This document shows positions 1,945 to 9,419 of a stretch of 14,123 nucleotides of DNA, one piece after another. Each line of letters begins with the position of its first letter. Positions within the stretch are counted from its first letter, which is position 1. This DNA comes from Phycisphaerales bacterium (GTDB lineage: Bacteria > Planctomycetota > Phycisphaerae > Phycisphaerales > SM1A02), in contig SKZB01000334.1 in assembly GCA_007127615.1 (NCBI GenBank), forward strand, positions 1 through 14,123. The letters run 5' to 3'. The notes beneath the pieces are model-generated. The model saw only the letters and a list, made by a program, of their open reading frames with translations, searched no databases and had not been told where the DNA came from. The position numbers were made by a program, and so were the translations under genes.

Positions 1945-1984
1945 TTGAGCGCAAGTGACGGGATGGGAGAGGTACGGAGGGAAA

Positions 1985-2016
1985 GTGACCAAGTGACCAA
2001 GTGACCAAGTGACGGA
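1985..2016 (+). repeat. 8-bp tandem repeat GTGACCAA x3 plus GTGACGGA
   Basis: Three exact copies of GTGACCAA (1985-1992, 1993-2000, 2001-2008) are followed by a variant unit GTGACGGA (2009-2016). A related AAGTGACGG occurs about 30 bases upstream, near 1953. The variant last unit is identical to the unit of the array at 2165-2188 read on the other strand, so the two arrays look like one family in opposite orientation. Confidence 0.95.
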
Positions 2017-2164: not shown

Positions 2165-2188
2165 TCACTCCGTCACTCCGTCACTCTT
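2165..2188 (-). repeat. 8-bp tandem repeat TCACTCCG x2.6 (reverse complement of GTGACGGA type)
   Basis: On the plus strand there are two exact TCACTCCG units (2165-2172, 2173-2180) and a partial third. Read on the minus strand the units are GTGACGGA, matching the last unit of the array at 1985-2016. The string AGTGACGGAG (2008-2017) has exact reverse complements at 2168-2177 and 2176-2185, giving a 10-bp inverted pair about 150 bases apart. Confidence 0.9.
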
Positions 2189-2189
2189 C

Positions 2190-2235
2190 CTTCGTGCCTT
2201 TATGTCTTCGTGCCTCCGTGCCTTCATACCTCCGC
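2190..2235. repeat. Imperfect CTTCGTGCCT/CTCCGTGCCT repeat near the leuS 3' end
   Basis: CTTCGTGCCT occurs at 2190-2199 and 2206-2215, and CTCCGTGCCT at 2214-2223, with similar CTTCAT/CCTCCG text up to about 2235. On the minus strand this reads as an AGGCACGAAG-type repeat directly downstream of the leuS stop. It is low-complexity sequence continuous with the octamer array beside it. Confidence 0.75.
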
Positions 2236-2262: not shown

Positions 2263-5148
2263 CTAACTCGCAATAACATTGATGATCTTGCCCGGCACCA
2301 CGATGACCTTGCGCACGGTCTTTCCTTCGAGCTGCGCTTTGATCTTTTCGTCGCCCAGCGCGAGTTCTTCCGTCGTCTTCTGATCGGCATCGGCGGGAAC
2401 CATGATCCGGCCGCGCACCTTGCCGAGAATCTGGACCGGCATTTCGATCTCATCATCCTTCAGCATCGCCGGATCGACCTTCGGCCACGCGGCATCGGCG
2501 ACCGACGGCTGATGGCCCAGCTTCGCCCAGATCTCTTCCGCCAGATGCGGCACGAACGGCGCGAGCGTGATCACGTACCGCTCGATCTGATCAGGCGTCA
2601 GTTTCCCCGCGCCGTCGCCGTCGCTCACCGAAGCGTTCGTGAACTCGATCATCGCGGCGATCGCGGTGTTGAATGACAATCGCTCAATGTCATCGCCCAC
2701 CTTCTGAATCGTGCGGTGCAGCATCTTTTCGAGCGCCTCATCCCGGGCTTCCGCCGTCCGCAGCGCGCCGGTTCTTTCATCGATCACCGCGCGCCACGTT
2801 CGCTGCAGGAAGCGGAAGAGCCCGGCGATATCGCGCGGGTTCCAGGGTTTGCTCGCATCGAGCGGGCCGAGGTACATCTCGTACAAACGGAACGTATCCG
2901 CGCCGAACGCCTCGATCACCTCATCGGGGTTGACGACGTTCTTCAGCGACTTGGACATCTTGGCGACGACCTGCGTGACGGTTTCGCCGGAGGCGCGTTC
3001 GATCAACGTGCCGTCCTCGCGCTCGTCAACCTCATCGATCGGCACGAGCGACTTGTCGGCGCGCTGGTAGGCGAAGCTCGTGATCAACCCCTGGTGGAAG
3101 AGCTTTCGGAACGGCTCGGGGGTGGAAACCTCACCCAGGTCGAAGAGAATCTTGTGCCAGAACCGCGCGTAGAGCAGATGCAGGACCGCGTGCTCGGCGC
3201 CGCCGATGTAGAGATCGACGTTCATCCAGTACTGCTCGACCTCCCGCGCGATGAAACGGTCCGAATTCGCCGGATCACAGTAGCGCAGGAAGTACCAGCA
3301 CGAACCGGCCCAGCCGGGCATGGTGTTCGTCTCACGACGGACGGGCGTCTCCGGCGGCAACACGCCGGGGTCGACTCCGGCCTCGCCGGCGGTGGTATGC
3401 ACCCAGTCGGTCGCCTTCGCCAGCAGCGGCATCGGCTCATCACTTTCGACCGGCTGGTAGTCCGCCATCGGCGGCAGGACAACCGGGAGCTTCTCTTCGG
3501 CAATGGGGTGGTGATTGCCCTTCTCATCGAACACGATCGGGAAGGGCTCTCCCCAGTAGCGCTGTCTCGAGAAGAGCCAGTCGCGGAGACGGTAATTGAT
3601 CTTCCGCGCGCCGTGACCGGATGACTCAAGCCAGTCAATGATCGTCTTCTTCGCTTCGGCGGTGGGCAGATCGTTGAGCGAGACCTCGTCGTTCGCGCTG
3701 TTGATGCTTCGGCCGCCGGCGGCATAGCGATCATCCCACGCCTCGGTTGACCACGACCAGCCGGCGCCGGGTTCCGGGGCGACGACCTGCGTGATCGGGA
3801 GATCGAACTTCTGCGCGAAGGCGAAGTCCCGTTCGTCGTGCCCCGGCACGGCCATGATCGCGCCGTGGCCGTATCCCATCAGCACGTAATCGCTGGTCCA
3901 GACGGGGATCGTCGCGCCGGTTGCGGGGTTGATTGCCCTGACCCCGGTATCGACGCCGGTCTTCTCCTTCGTGTCGGCCTGCCGGTCGACATCGCTCCGG
4001 TTCCGCGCAGATTCGACGTATCTTCGCAGCACGTCGGCCACCGTGCCGGGACGGGGATGGGCGATCGCCGAATCGACCAGGGGATGCTCCGGCGCGACGA
4101 CCATATAGGTGGCGCCGAAGATCGTGTCCGGCCGCGTGGTAAAGACGCGCAGCGTTGAGGTCTCGGATTGATCGTCAGAGATTTGAGATTTGAAATCTGA
4201 AATCTGAAATTTGAAATCTGAAATCTGAAAGTCAACCTCCGCCCCTTCGGAGCGCCCGATCCACTCCTTCTGCATCGTTCGGGTCGACTCGGGCCAGTCG
4301 ACGAGTTCGAGATCCCGAAGCAGGCGTTCGGCGTAGGCGGTGATGCGAAACATCCACTGCCGGAGCGGCTTGCGGTAGACGGGATACCCGCCGCGCTCGC
4401 TCCGGCCGTCGATTACCTCCTCGTTGGCCAGCGCGGTCCCGAGCTTCGGGCACCAGTTGACGGTCTGCTCGGCGAGGTAGGCGAGGCGCCGTTGGTCGAT
4501 GAAGTCGCGTTGTTTCTCCGGAGACATCTCGCGCCACTGTTCCGGCGTCATGCCGCCGACGGCCTGGCCGTGGTCGAGGGCCTCGATCAGTTCCTGAATC
4601 GGCCGCGCGCGGTCCTCGGCCGGGTCATACCACGCGCGGTACGCCTTGAGCCAGATCCACTGCGTCCAGCGGTAGTAGTCCGGATCGATCGTGGCAACCT
4701 CGCGCGACCAGTCGTAGGCGAACCCGAAGCGTTTGAGCTGGCGGCGGAAGTTGTCGATCGACTTGCGGGTCGTCTCGGCGGGATGGATTCCGGTCTGAAT
4801 CGCGTACTGCTCGGCGGGCAGGCCGAACGCGTCCCACCCCATCGGATGGAGGACGTTGAATCCGCGCAGCCGTTTGTACCGCCCGATGATGTCGGTCGCG
4901 GTGTACCCCTCGGGATGGCCGACGTGCAATCCCGCTCCGGAGGGGTAGGGGAACATGTCGAGCACATAGTACTTCGGCCGATCGGCATCAAAGTCCGGAT
5001 CGCCGGGATTCGGCACGCGGAAAGTCTGCTCCCGCTCCCAGTGTTCCTGCCAGCGCACTTCGAGCTGATTCGCCAGGTCGGCGGTATAGCGGTGCGGCGT
5101 GGTGGAGGAACCGGCGGCGTGCTCTGCGGGCGTGGTTGTCTTGCTCAT
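2263..5148 (-). CDS. leuS: Leucyl-tRNA synthetase (class Ia)
   Basis: Cytoplasmic enzyme charging tRNA-Leu with leucine; 961 residues, long for a bacterial LeuRS (about 860). Seen in order: FPYPSGAGLHVGHPEGY with the HIGH-type motif HVGH at 75-78; NWCP near 231; WIGRSEG at about 296-302; the editing-site threonine motif TTRPDT (337-342); GHGAIMAVPGHDERD of the editing domain; YRLRDWLFSRQRYWGEP; KMSKS at 730-734; and the C-terminal VRKVIVVPGKIINV. Two features lengthen it: a roughly 48-residue insertion (about 175-222) before NWCP, and FQISDFK heptads (307-327) from a 7-bp DNA repeat. The zinc-type cysteines seen in some bacterial LeuRS are mostly absent: only Cys233 remains of the CxxC...CxxC pattern. 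The start is the ATG at 5148-5146; the upstream AGAAGAAG is at best a weak ribosome site. Catalytic motifs look intact, so the enzyme should be active. Confidence 0.98.
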   Translation of the reverse strand: MSKTTTPAEHAAGSSTTPHRYTADLANQLEVRWQEHWEREQTFRVPNPGDPDFDADRPKYYVLDMFPYPSGAGLHVGHPEGYTATDIIGRYKRLRGFNVLHPMGWDAFGLPAEQYAIQTGIHPAETTRKSIDNFRRQLKRFGFAYDWSREVATIDPDYYRWTQWIWLKAYRAWYDPAEDRARPIQELIEALDHGQAVGGMTPEQWREMSPEKQRDFIDQRRLAYLAEQTVNWCPKLGTALANEEVIDGRSERGGYPVYRKPLRQWMFRITAYAERLLRDLELVDWPESTRTMQKEWIGRSEGAEVDFQISDFKFQISDFKSQISDDQSETSTLRVFTTRPDTIFGATYMVVAPEHPLVDSAIAHPRPGTVADVLRRYVESARNRSDVDRQADTKEKTGVDTGVRAINPATGATIPVWTSDYVLMGYGHGAIMAVPGHDERDFAFAQKFDLPITQVVAPEPGAGWSWSTEAWDDRYAAGGRSINSANDEVSLNDLPTAEAKKTIIDWLESSGHGARKINYRLRDWLFSRQRYWGEPFPIVFDEKGNHHPIAEEKLPVVLPPMADYQPVESDEPMPLLAKATDWVHTTAGEAGVDPGVLPPETPVRRETNTMPGWAGSCWYFLRYCDPANSDRFIAREVEQYWMNVDLYIGGAEHAVLHLLYARFWHKILFDLGEVSTPEPFRKLFHQGLITSFAYQRADKSLVPIDEVDEREDGTLIERASGETVTQVVAKMSKSLKNVVNPDEVIEAFGADTFRLYEMYLGPLDASKPWNPRDIAGLFRFLQRTWRAVIDERTGALRTAEARDEALEKMLHRTIQKVGDDIERLSFNTAIAAMIEFTNASVSDGDGAGKLTPDQIERYVITLAPFVPHLAEEIWAKLGHQPSVADAAWPKVDPAMLKDDEIEMPVQILGKVRGRIMVPADADQKTTEELALGDEKIKAQLEGKTVRKVIVVPGKIINVIAS
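4178..4230 (-). repeat. In-frame 7-bp tandem repeat inside leuS (encodes FQISDFK heptads)
   Basis: Plus-strand units are GAGATTT (4178, 4185), GAAATCT (4192, 4199), GAAATTT (4206), GAAATCT (4213, 4220), then GAAA to 4230: seven units plus four bases. Because 7 and 3 are coprime, three units equal seven codons, giving FQISDFK-FQISDFK-SQISDDQ at LeuRS residues 307-327. The block is strikingly AT-rich against the GC-rich gene. It sits between WIGRSEG and TTRPDT, where E. coli LeuRS has only a short hairpin (from memory). Confidence 0.97.
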
Positions 5149-5205: not shown

Positions 5206-5210
5206 ACGCG

Positions 5211-5309
5211 ACGAGAAACGGGGTCCCGCGCGGCGAGACGACGCCACGAGAAACGGGGTCTCGCGCGGCGAGACGACGCCACGAGAAACGGGGTCTCGCG
5301 CGGCGAGAC
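5211..5309. repeat. 35-bp tandem direct repeat, three copies (last incomplete)
   Basis: Copy 1 is 5211-5245, copy 2 is 5246-5280 and copy 3 runs from 5281 to 5309 before diverging. Copies 1 and 2 differ at one base (GGGTCCC versus GGGTCTC). Each copy begins ACGAGAAACGGGGT and contains a GTCTCGC-GCG-GCGAGAC dyad, perfect in copies 2 and 3 and with one mismatch in copy 1. The array therefore encodes serial hairpins. There are no unique spacers, so it is not a CRISPR. It lies 63 bases upstream of the leuS start codon. Confidence 0.97.
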
Positions 5310-8119: not shown

Positions 8120-8140
8120 GCCCGGCGGCCCATCTGACCT

Positions 8141-8188
8141 GACCATCTCATCATCTGACCATCTCATCATCTGACCATCTCATCATCT
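8141..8188 (+). repeat. 16-bp tandem repeat GACCATCTCATCATCT x3, abutting aroC
   Basis: Three exact copies occur at 8141-8156, 8157-8172 and 8173-8188, with a degenerate fragment (CATCTGACCT) just before. Only four bases separate the last copy from the aroC ATG at 8193, so the repeat occupies the place where a ribosome-binding site would be. No purine-rich Shine-Dalgarno exists there. An in-frame TGA at 8172-8174 lies within the array. Confidence 0.97.
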
Positions 8189-8192
8189 GATC

Positions 8193-9419
8193 ATGTCCAG
8201 ACTTCGTTACGACACCGCCGGTGAATCACACGGCCCGATGCTGACGGTCCTCGTCAACGGCGTTCCCGCCGGCCTCGAGATCGATACCGACTTCATCAAC
8301 GCGGAACTTCGCCGTCGCCAGGGCGGGTACGGCCGGGGCGGACGGCAGCGTATCGAAACCGATGCCGTCACCTTCACCGCCGGCGTGCGGCGCGGGGTGG
8401 GCACCGGCGCGCCGATCGTCATGCAGATTCCCAACCGGGATTCGCGGCTGGACGATCTCGAACGCACCCCGCCGGTTCACCGGCCGCGCCCGGGCCACGC
8501 GGACCTCGCCGGTTCGGTCAAATGGCTCACCACCGACTGCCGGGAGACGCTCGAACGCGCCAGCGCCCGCGAGACCGCCGCCCGCACCGCCGCCGGCGCC
8601 CTCGCCCGCTGTCTGCTGCGGGAATTCGACGTCGAAGCGTTCGGGTTCGTGCGCGGCATGCTCGATGCCGTCACCGATGTCGAACCGGCGCCCGGAAACC
8701 TCGACACCCTGTTCCGGGCTCGAGACGCATCGGACGTCTACTGCCCCGATGCACGCGTCAGCGCGCAGATGATCGAGATCATTCGCCGGGCCAAAGTGGA
8801 TAAGGACACCGTCGGCGGGCTGGCGGAAGTACACGTCTTCGGCTGTCCGATCGGCCTCGGCTCGTGCGTGAACTGGACGGAAAAACTCGACGCCCGGCTC
8901 GCCGGGGCGGTCATGGGTATTCAGGCGTTCAAATCCGTCGAGATCGGCCTCGGGAAGGACTGCGCCGTTCGGACCGGTTCCCAGGTGCACGATCCGATTC
9001 TCTACGACGCATCGCAGCAAGAGACGGCATCGCTCGGATTTGTCCGGCCGAGCAACAACGCCGGCGGTCTCGAGGGCGGCATGACCAACGGCATGCCCGT
9101 GGTCGTGCGCGGCACGATGAAACCGATCTCCACCCTCTTGCGCGGGATGCCGAGCGTTGATCTGAACACCCGGCAGCCCGAACACAGCGCCTACGAGCGT
9201 TCGGATGTCTGCGCGCTCTCCGCCGCCAGCGTCGTCATGGAAAACGTCGTCGCCTTCGAGATCGCGCGGGCTTTCCTGGAGAAATTCGGCGGGGATTCCA
9301 TGCACGAAGTGCAGGCCAACTATGAATCCTTCATGGACATGGCCCGCCGCCTGCCGCTTGAGCCGCCCATGCGGGACATGCGGGAGTCGCCGATGGAATC
9401 CGATCAGTCCGAAGCGTGA
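8193..9419 (+). CDS. aroC: Chorismate synthase
   Basis: Last shikimate-pathway enzyme; it converts EPSP to chorismate using reduced FMN in the cytoplasm. The 408 residues show all family signatures: TAGESHG (8-14, His13), RRQGGYGRGGRQ (41-52), RPGHADL (99-105), RASARETAAR (122-131), and the later SNNAGGLEGGMTNGMPVVVRGTMKPI. Length is slightly above the usual 360-400; the final about 20 residues (after RLPLEPP) are a Met/Asp/Glu-rich tail. The start is supported by the family N-terminus MSxLRYxTAGESHG and by the in-frame stop at 8172-8174. No Shine-Dalgarno is present: the leader is a 16-bp repeat array. Its 3' end overlaps the convergent membrane-protein gene by 16 bp. No other shikimate gene is adjacent. 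Confidence 0.98.
   Translation: MSRLRYDTAGESHGPMLTVLVNGVPAGLEIDTDFINAELRRRQGGYGRGGRQRIETDAVTFTAGVRRGVGTGAPIVMQIPNRDSRLDDLERTPPVHRPRPGHADLAGSVKWLTTDCRETLERASARETAARTAAGALARCLLREFDVEAFGFVRGMLDAVTDVEPAPGNLDTLFRARDASDVYCPDARVSAQMIEIIRRAKVDKDTVGGLAEVHVFGCPIGLGSCVNWTEKLDARLAGAVMGIQAFKSVEIGLGKDCAVRTGSQVHDPILYDASQQETASLGFVRPSNNAGGLEGGMTNGMPVVVRGTMKPISTLLRGMPSVDLNTRQPEHSAYERSDVCALSAASVVMENVVAFEIARAFLEKFGGDSMHEVQANYESFMDMARRLPLEPPMRDMRESPMESDQSEA

Follow-up and report, generated by a model that had tools for sequence, protein, structure and literature searches.

A heptamer array inside a leucyl-tRNA synthetase gene

How does a tandem repeat of seven bases come to lie in frame inside an essential gene? 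The question is raised by the leuS gene of a Phycisphaerales bacterium (Planctomycetota; assembly GCA_007127615.1), located on contig SKZB01000334.1 (contig C80 in our numbering), of which a stretch of 14,123 nucleotides, here called the window, was analysed. This gene encodes a bacterial leucyl-tRNA synthetase (LeuRS) and carries an array of the heptamer TTTCARA. The same unit was found elsewhere in the genome as inverted arrays that frame a gene of the Pfam family PF05635, the four-helix-bundle (S23) or 23S rRNA intervening-sequence protein (IVP). The leuS tract is probably a copy of only the terminal array of such an S23/IVP element, lodged in a permissive loop of the enzyme.

The LeuRS aligned with that of Thermus thermophilus (1h3n; phmmer, E 4.4e-203), and the open reading frame (ORF), the Pfam matches and this alignment show an intact enzyme of the bacterial type (Table 1). 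On the minus strand the tract (FQISDFKFQISDFKSQIS) reads TTTCAGA twice, TTTCAAA, TTTCAGA twice, TTTCAAA, TCTCAAA and a final TCTC, about 7.6 units, and encodes the peptide VDFQISDFKFQISDFKSQISDDQSETSTLRVFTTRPDT; Tandem Repeats Finder called 7.1 copies of it (4181-4230). The original prediction, made from the letters of the window, had noticed an AT-rich heptamer array within a GC-rich leuS, in frame between WIGRSEG and TTRPDT, and both points were confirmed: the tract has 26% GC vs 63.5% for leuS, and its period-7 score of 37.2 was reached by none of 1000 codon shuffles (maximum 12.4), so the array is real and far beyond chance. With an extension recognised by eye, which reaches position 4154, it comprises 77 bp or 11 units. 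The peptide text FQISDF and its variants gave no match in the accessible open-access literature.

Two further claims about the tract stood in part. No phase of the repeat gives a stop in this orientation, but the other strand, (TCTGAAA)n, reads TGA. Likewise, the array does lie in the CP1 (connective peptide 1) editing domain, before the editing motif, but in a flexible loop, and no effect on editing was seen. In the AlphaFold2 model the confidence score pLDDT (predicted local distance difference test) is below 50 at residues 315-329, and 1h3n is gapped inside the stretch of codons 310-331 in the phmmer alignment; with the low confidence of that region, the tract may form a flexible hairpin loop at the entrance of the editing domain.

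The leuS unit frames an IVP gene in the same genome

As expected of a dispersed repeat, the leuS heptamer was also present on contigs C34, C79, C81 and C322. With 7-bp head-to-tail units that recur at several genome sites, the tract is like the short tandemly repeated repetitive (STRR) sequences, the dispersed heptamer repeats of cyanobacteria. The arrays on C81 and C322 lie outside the long ORFs taken as genes, the leuS tract and one C34 stretch are coding, and the copies on C79 (at base 1) and C81 lie at a contig end or close to one. On C34 (locus L198), a PF05635 gene stands between inverted arrays of this one unit, which is the architecture of an S23/IVP element, and the gene itself contains an in-frame heptamer stretch (LKSQISNLKS).

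Three PF05635 matches were found in this genome, on C34, C420 and C460, while the family search gave none on the window contig; the leuS tract is not a full element. It is also without terminal inverted arms, one orientation being dominant (fold z -0.77), and is at most an array-only derivative of an S23/IVP element. In the genome of the nearest relative, Phycisphaerales bacterium DLM2.Bin64 (L058), the C420 locus was matched across the gene, hence offering no empty site, and the C34 locus was split over two contigs.

Inverted tandem arrays around IVP genes at large

After the heptamer-framed gene on C34 had been found, IVP genes in general were examined for such arrays. The set comprised 69 IVP loci of the order, mostly the higher-scoring PF05635 matches together with the three of the own genome and one of genome G059; 68 were usable. 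The score limits applied here and below (14 for arms, 22 for the motif TTTSARA, 8/9 for peptides) were set by us while viewing the data.

PF05635 genes were framed by inverted tandem arrays of 7- or 8-bp units. Inverted complementarity between the two flanks (score of at least 14) was found at 60/68 loci vs 8/340 mismatched pairs, and complementarity in direct orientation at none of the 68. The best lag was 7, 8 or 14 in 64/68 upstream and 63/68 downstream flanks; control windows from the same loci (n = 345) favoured lags of 9, 15, 12 and 6. Fifty-two loci were strongly periodic, with period 7 in 37 and period 8 in 15, and in 39 of these 52 the upstream and downstream consensus units were reverse complements within one base, a direct match being found in none. 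The similarity of the units rises with that of the IVP proteins (Mantel r 0.37, p 0.0005); the choice of period, 7 vs 8, was unrelated to protein similarity (r 0.01, p 0.38).

A further test used 32 other genomes (Chlorobi, Verrucomicrobia, Fibrobacter, other Planctomycetota and more), which returned 30 loci, 17 of them recognised by the profile and 16 usable. Inverted arms were present at 10 of these 16 vs 2/80 mismatched pairs, and the best period was 7 in 14/16. On plasmids, 13 of 19 records matching the C34 protein were used (Nostoc, Calothrix, Anabaena, Pseudanabaena, Aulosira, Stanieria, Picosynechococcus and Riemerella), with inverted arms in 10/13 vs 7/156 mismatched pairs and a best period of 7 or 8 in all 13. 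At some plasmid loci the IVP gene has as neighbours cas10-cmr3, cas6-cas4 (twice), nrdB-nrdA, or an iron-sulfur assembly gene and sufB.

Filled and empty sites

The array-IVP-array arrangement is a discrete block that is present or absent between the genes of related bacteria. In the groES-groEL (Cpn10/Cpn60) spacer of one genus it directly follows the groES stop in three genomes (G012, G017 and G062), and the empty form, a 65-bp spacer in which no array was seen, occurs in G007 and G001. The three IVPs are only 50-59% alike, so one insertion cannot be told from several; the RNA of these elements folds moderately better than shuffles (z -2.15; 2/100 as good). The nrdB-nrdA site is filled in Nostoc edaphicum and empty in Calothrix NIES-4105. 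In a Nostoc plasmid cluster with genes A, B and C, one version (L429) has an IVP with TCAGGAG arms between A and B; in another (L428) a second kind of IVP, with GGGAAAA arms, fills the B-C slot; and a third (L443) has both slots without an IVP. For the A-B and nrd inserts, the boundaries of insert and arrays coincide within a few bases.

A cas6-IVP-cas4 locus of Anabaena, compared with Dolichospermum as a candidate empty site, was rejected as not clean, with ~230 bp of other sequence in place. In two genomes, G102 (L343) and G074 (L344), the groES-groEL slot is occupied by another ORF of ~1 kb, presumably sulfotransferase-like.

One IVP subfamily carries the leuS unit

Relatives of the C34 protein with at least 48% identity, here called L198-type, number 14 in 400 genomes, itself counted. 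The TTTSARA score was at least 22 at all 14 L198-type loci (the lowest exactly 22). It stayed at 16 or below at 66 other IVP loci and under 22 at 29 leuS loci, which makes the leuS unit the mark of a single IVP subfamily. Residues coded by the heptamer are part of the query protein; with them masked, 10 of the 13 other relatives scored 336-439, L363, L360 and L365 scored 267, 184 and 162, and other IVPs scored at most 210. These three low-scoring relatives contain a stop.

Exact 24-base arrays occurred in 8/400 genomes (to judge from their handles, the same set of 400), six of which carry an L198-type IVP, itself found in 14/400. The association is strong with all genomes counted (Fisher p 1.5e-8) and with the own genome excluded (5/7, p 3.2e-7).

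The LeuRS linker as an insertion-tolerant site

Reading of leuS covered 101 genomes of the order, the own genome among them; two genes were partial, leaving 99 linkers, and in 97 of these the linker had 18-46 residues. In the two others, L138 (718-4830, plus strand) and L139 (524-4213, minus strand), linkers of 276 and 239 residues hold in frame a domain like the REP-associated tyrosine transposase (RAYT; REP, repetitive extragenic palindromic), in the same loop as the heptamers of the window. Against the NCBIfam cut-off of 80 for RAYT, L139 passes (82.6) and L138 fails (69.2), while among further LeuRS proteins P0027 (88.5) and P0033 (83.4) pass and P0097 (77.3) fails, giving 3/5 RAYT-like inserts above the cut-off. 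A structure model of the RAYT-LeuRS fusion (pLDDT 55) was too poor for use. Heptamer-like linker peptides were seen in 10 of the 120 LeuRS proteins listed of 8000, that of the window included, and were scattered across the tree. The variety of these in-frame inserts indicates that the loop tolerates much that preserves the frame.

A single ancestral insertion for all heptamer-bearing LeuRS was considered and is unsupported, with 9 changes for 10 labelled rows vs a shuffled mean of 9.7, a result that also fits many losses.

Other inserts were observed at this site. Four LeuRS proteins (P0081, P0112, P0113 and P0114) have ~100 additional residues in the loop, possibly STAS-like, but in P0081 and P0112 the insert matched no Pfam domain. 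In-frame inserts of palindromic, REP-like sequence were recognised in the leuS linker by eye in L051 and L053, and in L208 from peptide evidence only.

Copy-number change and the origin of the leuS tract

The leuS gene of L058 is 90.6% identical to that of the window at the nucleotide level and holds at the tract site 35 bp, five units that fit TYTSARA with 0 mismatches. It is shorter by 42 bp, the sole gap of the whole alignment, so that 11 units (77 bp) here face 5 units (35 bp) there, as counted by eye. The difference equals six units, a multiple of three, and the frame is therefore kept; the single close pair available thus agrees with the claim that copy number changes in steps of three units. 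The heptads were not strain-specific, as had been entertained, since a shorter five-unit form is already present in L058, and a plain strain-specific gain was rejected for that reason. Elsewhere in the L058 genome, a valS-like ORF (L350, G101:C3) includes an in-frame stretch of the leuS heptamer (LKSQISNLRF), directly before QQDPDVLDTWFSS.

We infer the origin of the leuS tract from an S23/IVP element from the identity of the unit and from its association with the L198-type genes. Arrays with the unit of the element would also land without its gene, in spacers and occasionally in coding sequence, and one such array would have entered leuS. Its survival there would be due to a stop-free orientation, a frame-keeping number of units and a loose hairpin-loop site, and strand slippage may later have added or removed units in frame-keeping steps. 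As a guess, an Avd-like IVP protein could bind the heptamer stem of its own element, as RNA or single-stranded DNA, and recruit a host copying activity. The findings fit the original prediction of a mobile or self-expanding repeat entering a housekeeping gene; overall, that interpretation was partly supported, and it missed the likely source, namely the inverted arrays at the ends of S23/IVP (PF05635) elements. A wider proposal can be put forward tentatively: array-IVP-array could be a minimal mobile element that extends across Planctomycetota, Chlorobi, Bacteroidota and Cyanobacteria. Every lineage of Avd-like IVPs would recognise the 7- or 8-bp unit particular to it and propagate that unit, and dispersed heptamers, including the tracts in essential tRNA synthetase genes, could be solo ends of the element.

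Several observations weigh against an origin of the tract from IVP elements. Mobility was not observed in any comparison, and the only close relative already carries the units, so that no heptamer-free close sister shows their arrival. The L198-type genes are often without the full architecture: an array lies within 700 bp of the match in 8/14 loci and inside the gene in 9/14 (the place of L365 being assumed), and arrays on both sides occur only in L352 and perhaps L358. Some arrays belong to the IVP genes themselves, so the fair figure for solo arrays is that of exact arrays away from an IVP gene, which with the own genome excluded is 2/4 genomes (p 0.006). Two of the eight array-bearing genomes, G127 and G237, are without an L198-type IVP, and none adjoins their arrays. 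In the L058 genome no match to the 24-mer was found even with up to 3 mismatches, its copies being more mixed. Among linkers other than that of the window, none of 98 reached a TTTSARA score of 22 (L170 reaches 20), the evidence for heptamers in other LeuRS proteins is at the peptide level only, and 4/600 random control segments from the same proteins, which may overlap the linker, reached the peptide threshold. Finally, the RNA of the leuS array is not unusually stable, and slippage alone can account for the 42-bp difference.

Plain slippage would go further and produce the whole tract by expansion of an AT-rich seed in the loop, with no IVP link and a unit match by chance. Such expansion agrees with a loop tolerant of many sequences and with the single close relative available, which differs by a whole number of units; it is nonetheless unlikely, because the unit equals the arm unit of an IVP gene in the same genome, exact arrays are rare (8/400 genomes) and the unit subfamily-specific, and the heptamer is also in frame in the valS-like ORF of the relative.

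Somewhat less likely again is the reverse direction, in which another agent spreads the arrays and IVP genes settle in them or acquire them. G127 and G237 are what it would lead one to expect, as are the many L198-type genes whose arrays are one-sided or only internal. Insertion of a gene into one array would not yield inversion, however, and the arms are inverted, with 0/68 loci direct; moreover, no array is present at the groES-groEL, nrd and Nostoc plasmid sites in their empty form, and the similarity of the units follows that of the proteins.

It is very improbable that the heptads are a selected insert that tunes LeuRS editing or binds a partner: the tract is placed at the entrance of the editing domain, but in a low-confidence loop where other LeuRS have unrelated inserts, and its length differs even in the nearest relative. 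An assembly artefact at the repeat, although other array copies at or near contig ends (C79, C81) suggest that arrays may break assembly, is hardly credible for a contig-internal tract with the frame intact on both sides and a shorter version in L058, an independent assembly of a different genome.

Features and repeats near leuS

The mnmG-leuS spacer (1911-2261; mnmG identified by Pfam) has 351 bp vs ~99 bp in L058, being ~250 bp longer. It contains the unit of the C460 IVP gene (GGCACGGA), as well as an imperfect inverted pair of octamer arrays with no IVP gene (Table 1). These arrays, like the heptamer stretch in the valS-like ORF of L058, are read as further array-only copies. A 35-bp unit is repeated three times directly upstream of leuS (5206-5309), and a 16-bp (8-bp) tandem repeat at 8139-8194 immediately precedes the next long ORF.

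Table 1. Coordinates of leuS, its heptamer tract, nearby octamer arrays and the C34 IVP locus
Feature	Sequence	Position	Strand	Basis or remark
leuS, bacterial leucyl-tRNA synthetase, 961 aa	window	2263..5148	-	961 codons, open frame; PF13603 191.9 bits and three other Pfam matches
TTTCARA heptamer array in frame in leuS	window	4178..4230	-	best period-7 segment of leuS
Rest of eighth unit and three degenerate heptamer-like units extending the array	window	4154..4177	-	by eye
Loop holding most of the array, codons 310-331, between predicted strands 299-309 and 332-337	window	4156..4221	-	AlphaFold2 model
CP1 editing domain containing the loop, codons 294-508	window	3625..4269	-	PF13603 match 294-508
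Octamer array AAGTGACC, first arm of imperfect inverted pair without IVP gene	window	1983..2013	+	by eye
Octamer array TCACTCCG, second arm of imperfect inverted pair	window	2165..2186	+	
Octamer array CCTCCGTG/CCTTCGTG, mnmG-leuS spacer	window	2189..2234	+	unit shared with the C460 IVP gene of this genome (upstream arm)
L198 upstream arm (TTTCAGA)n	L198	1911-1985		before IVP gene
L198 IVP gene	L198	2072-2611		PF05635 90.5 bits, cut-off 33.8
L198 downstream arm, inverted (TCTGAAA)3	L198	2617-2640		after IVP gene

Comparison with known systems

Rickettsia palindromic elements are a repeat family found in frame in housekeeping genes and are not known to be tandem heptamers; the leuS tract, for its part, is not a marked palindrome. 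Nor does the tract belong with the REP/RAYT systems, being a tandem heptamer with no unusual fold, although no RAYT search of the own genome was made.

The S23p ORF of Coxiella burnetii is taken here as a member of PF05635. In the accessible part of the source, the intervening sequence (IVS) of the C. burnetii 23S rRNA is described as having this ORF, terminal inverted repeats of 28 bp that form a stem, and tandem heptamers (GACAGAT) before the ORF in strain-dependent number (PMC4990558). On that description the elements reported here share the S23p ORF, the inverted-repeat stem and the adjacent heptamers, and the variable number of heptamers beside S23p supports the heptamer-IVP link. Unlike the Coxiella IVS, they lie between protein genes, their stems are built of lineage-specific 7- or 8-bp tandem units, and array-only copies exist. 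A location in 23S rRNA was not found for any element compared in detail, and Rfam gave no match at the gathering score in five sources, a check outside which most of the 69 loci fall. In the accessible open-access literature, heptamers adjoining S23 were found only in PMC4990558. According to the accessible text of another source, PF05635 resembles Avd of diversity-generating retroelements (PMC10053308).

As far as the accessible parts of the sources go, the Nostoc heptamer repeat GGGGA(C/T)T (PMC4692102) and the TAACTGA repeats of Beggiatoaceae and cyanobacteria (PMC4679880) are like the present arrays in being short head-to-tail heptamers, mostly intergenic and at times in ORFs; S23 and four helix are not mentioned in the accessible text of either. 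The arms of the Nostoc edaphicum IVP, GGGAGTA/GGGGAGT, can be set beside that Nostoc repeat as so described. Two IVP loci of Chlorobiaceae (L387 and L388) have arms of TCAGTWR units, and L387 also has TCAGTTA, the reverse complement of TAACTGA.

To our knowledge, dispersed heptamers have long served as fingerprints with their origin unknown, and S23/four-helix-bundle genes are common with their function unknown. A heptamer-IVP link would give the repeats a testable origin and the genes a testable function, that of a small protein within, and seemingly matched to, its own tandem-repeat stem, and the leuS tract shows the repeat reaching an essential gene where frame and fold permit. The ends of S23/IVP elements as the likely source of such a tract are the new part of this comparison, and they may explain the seven-base repeats scattered among bacteria.

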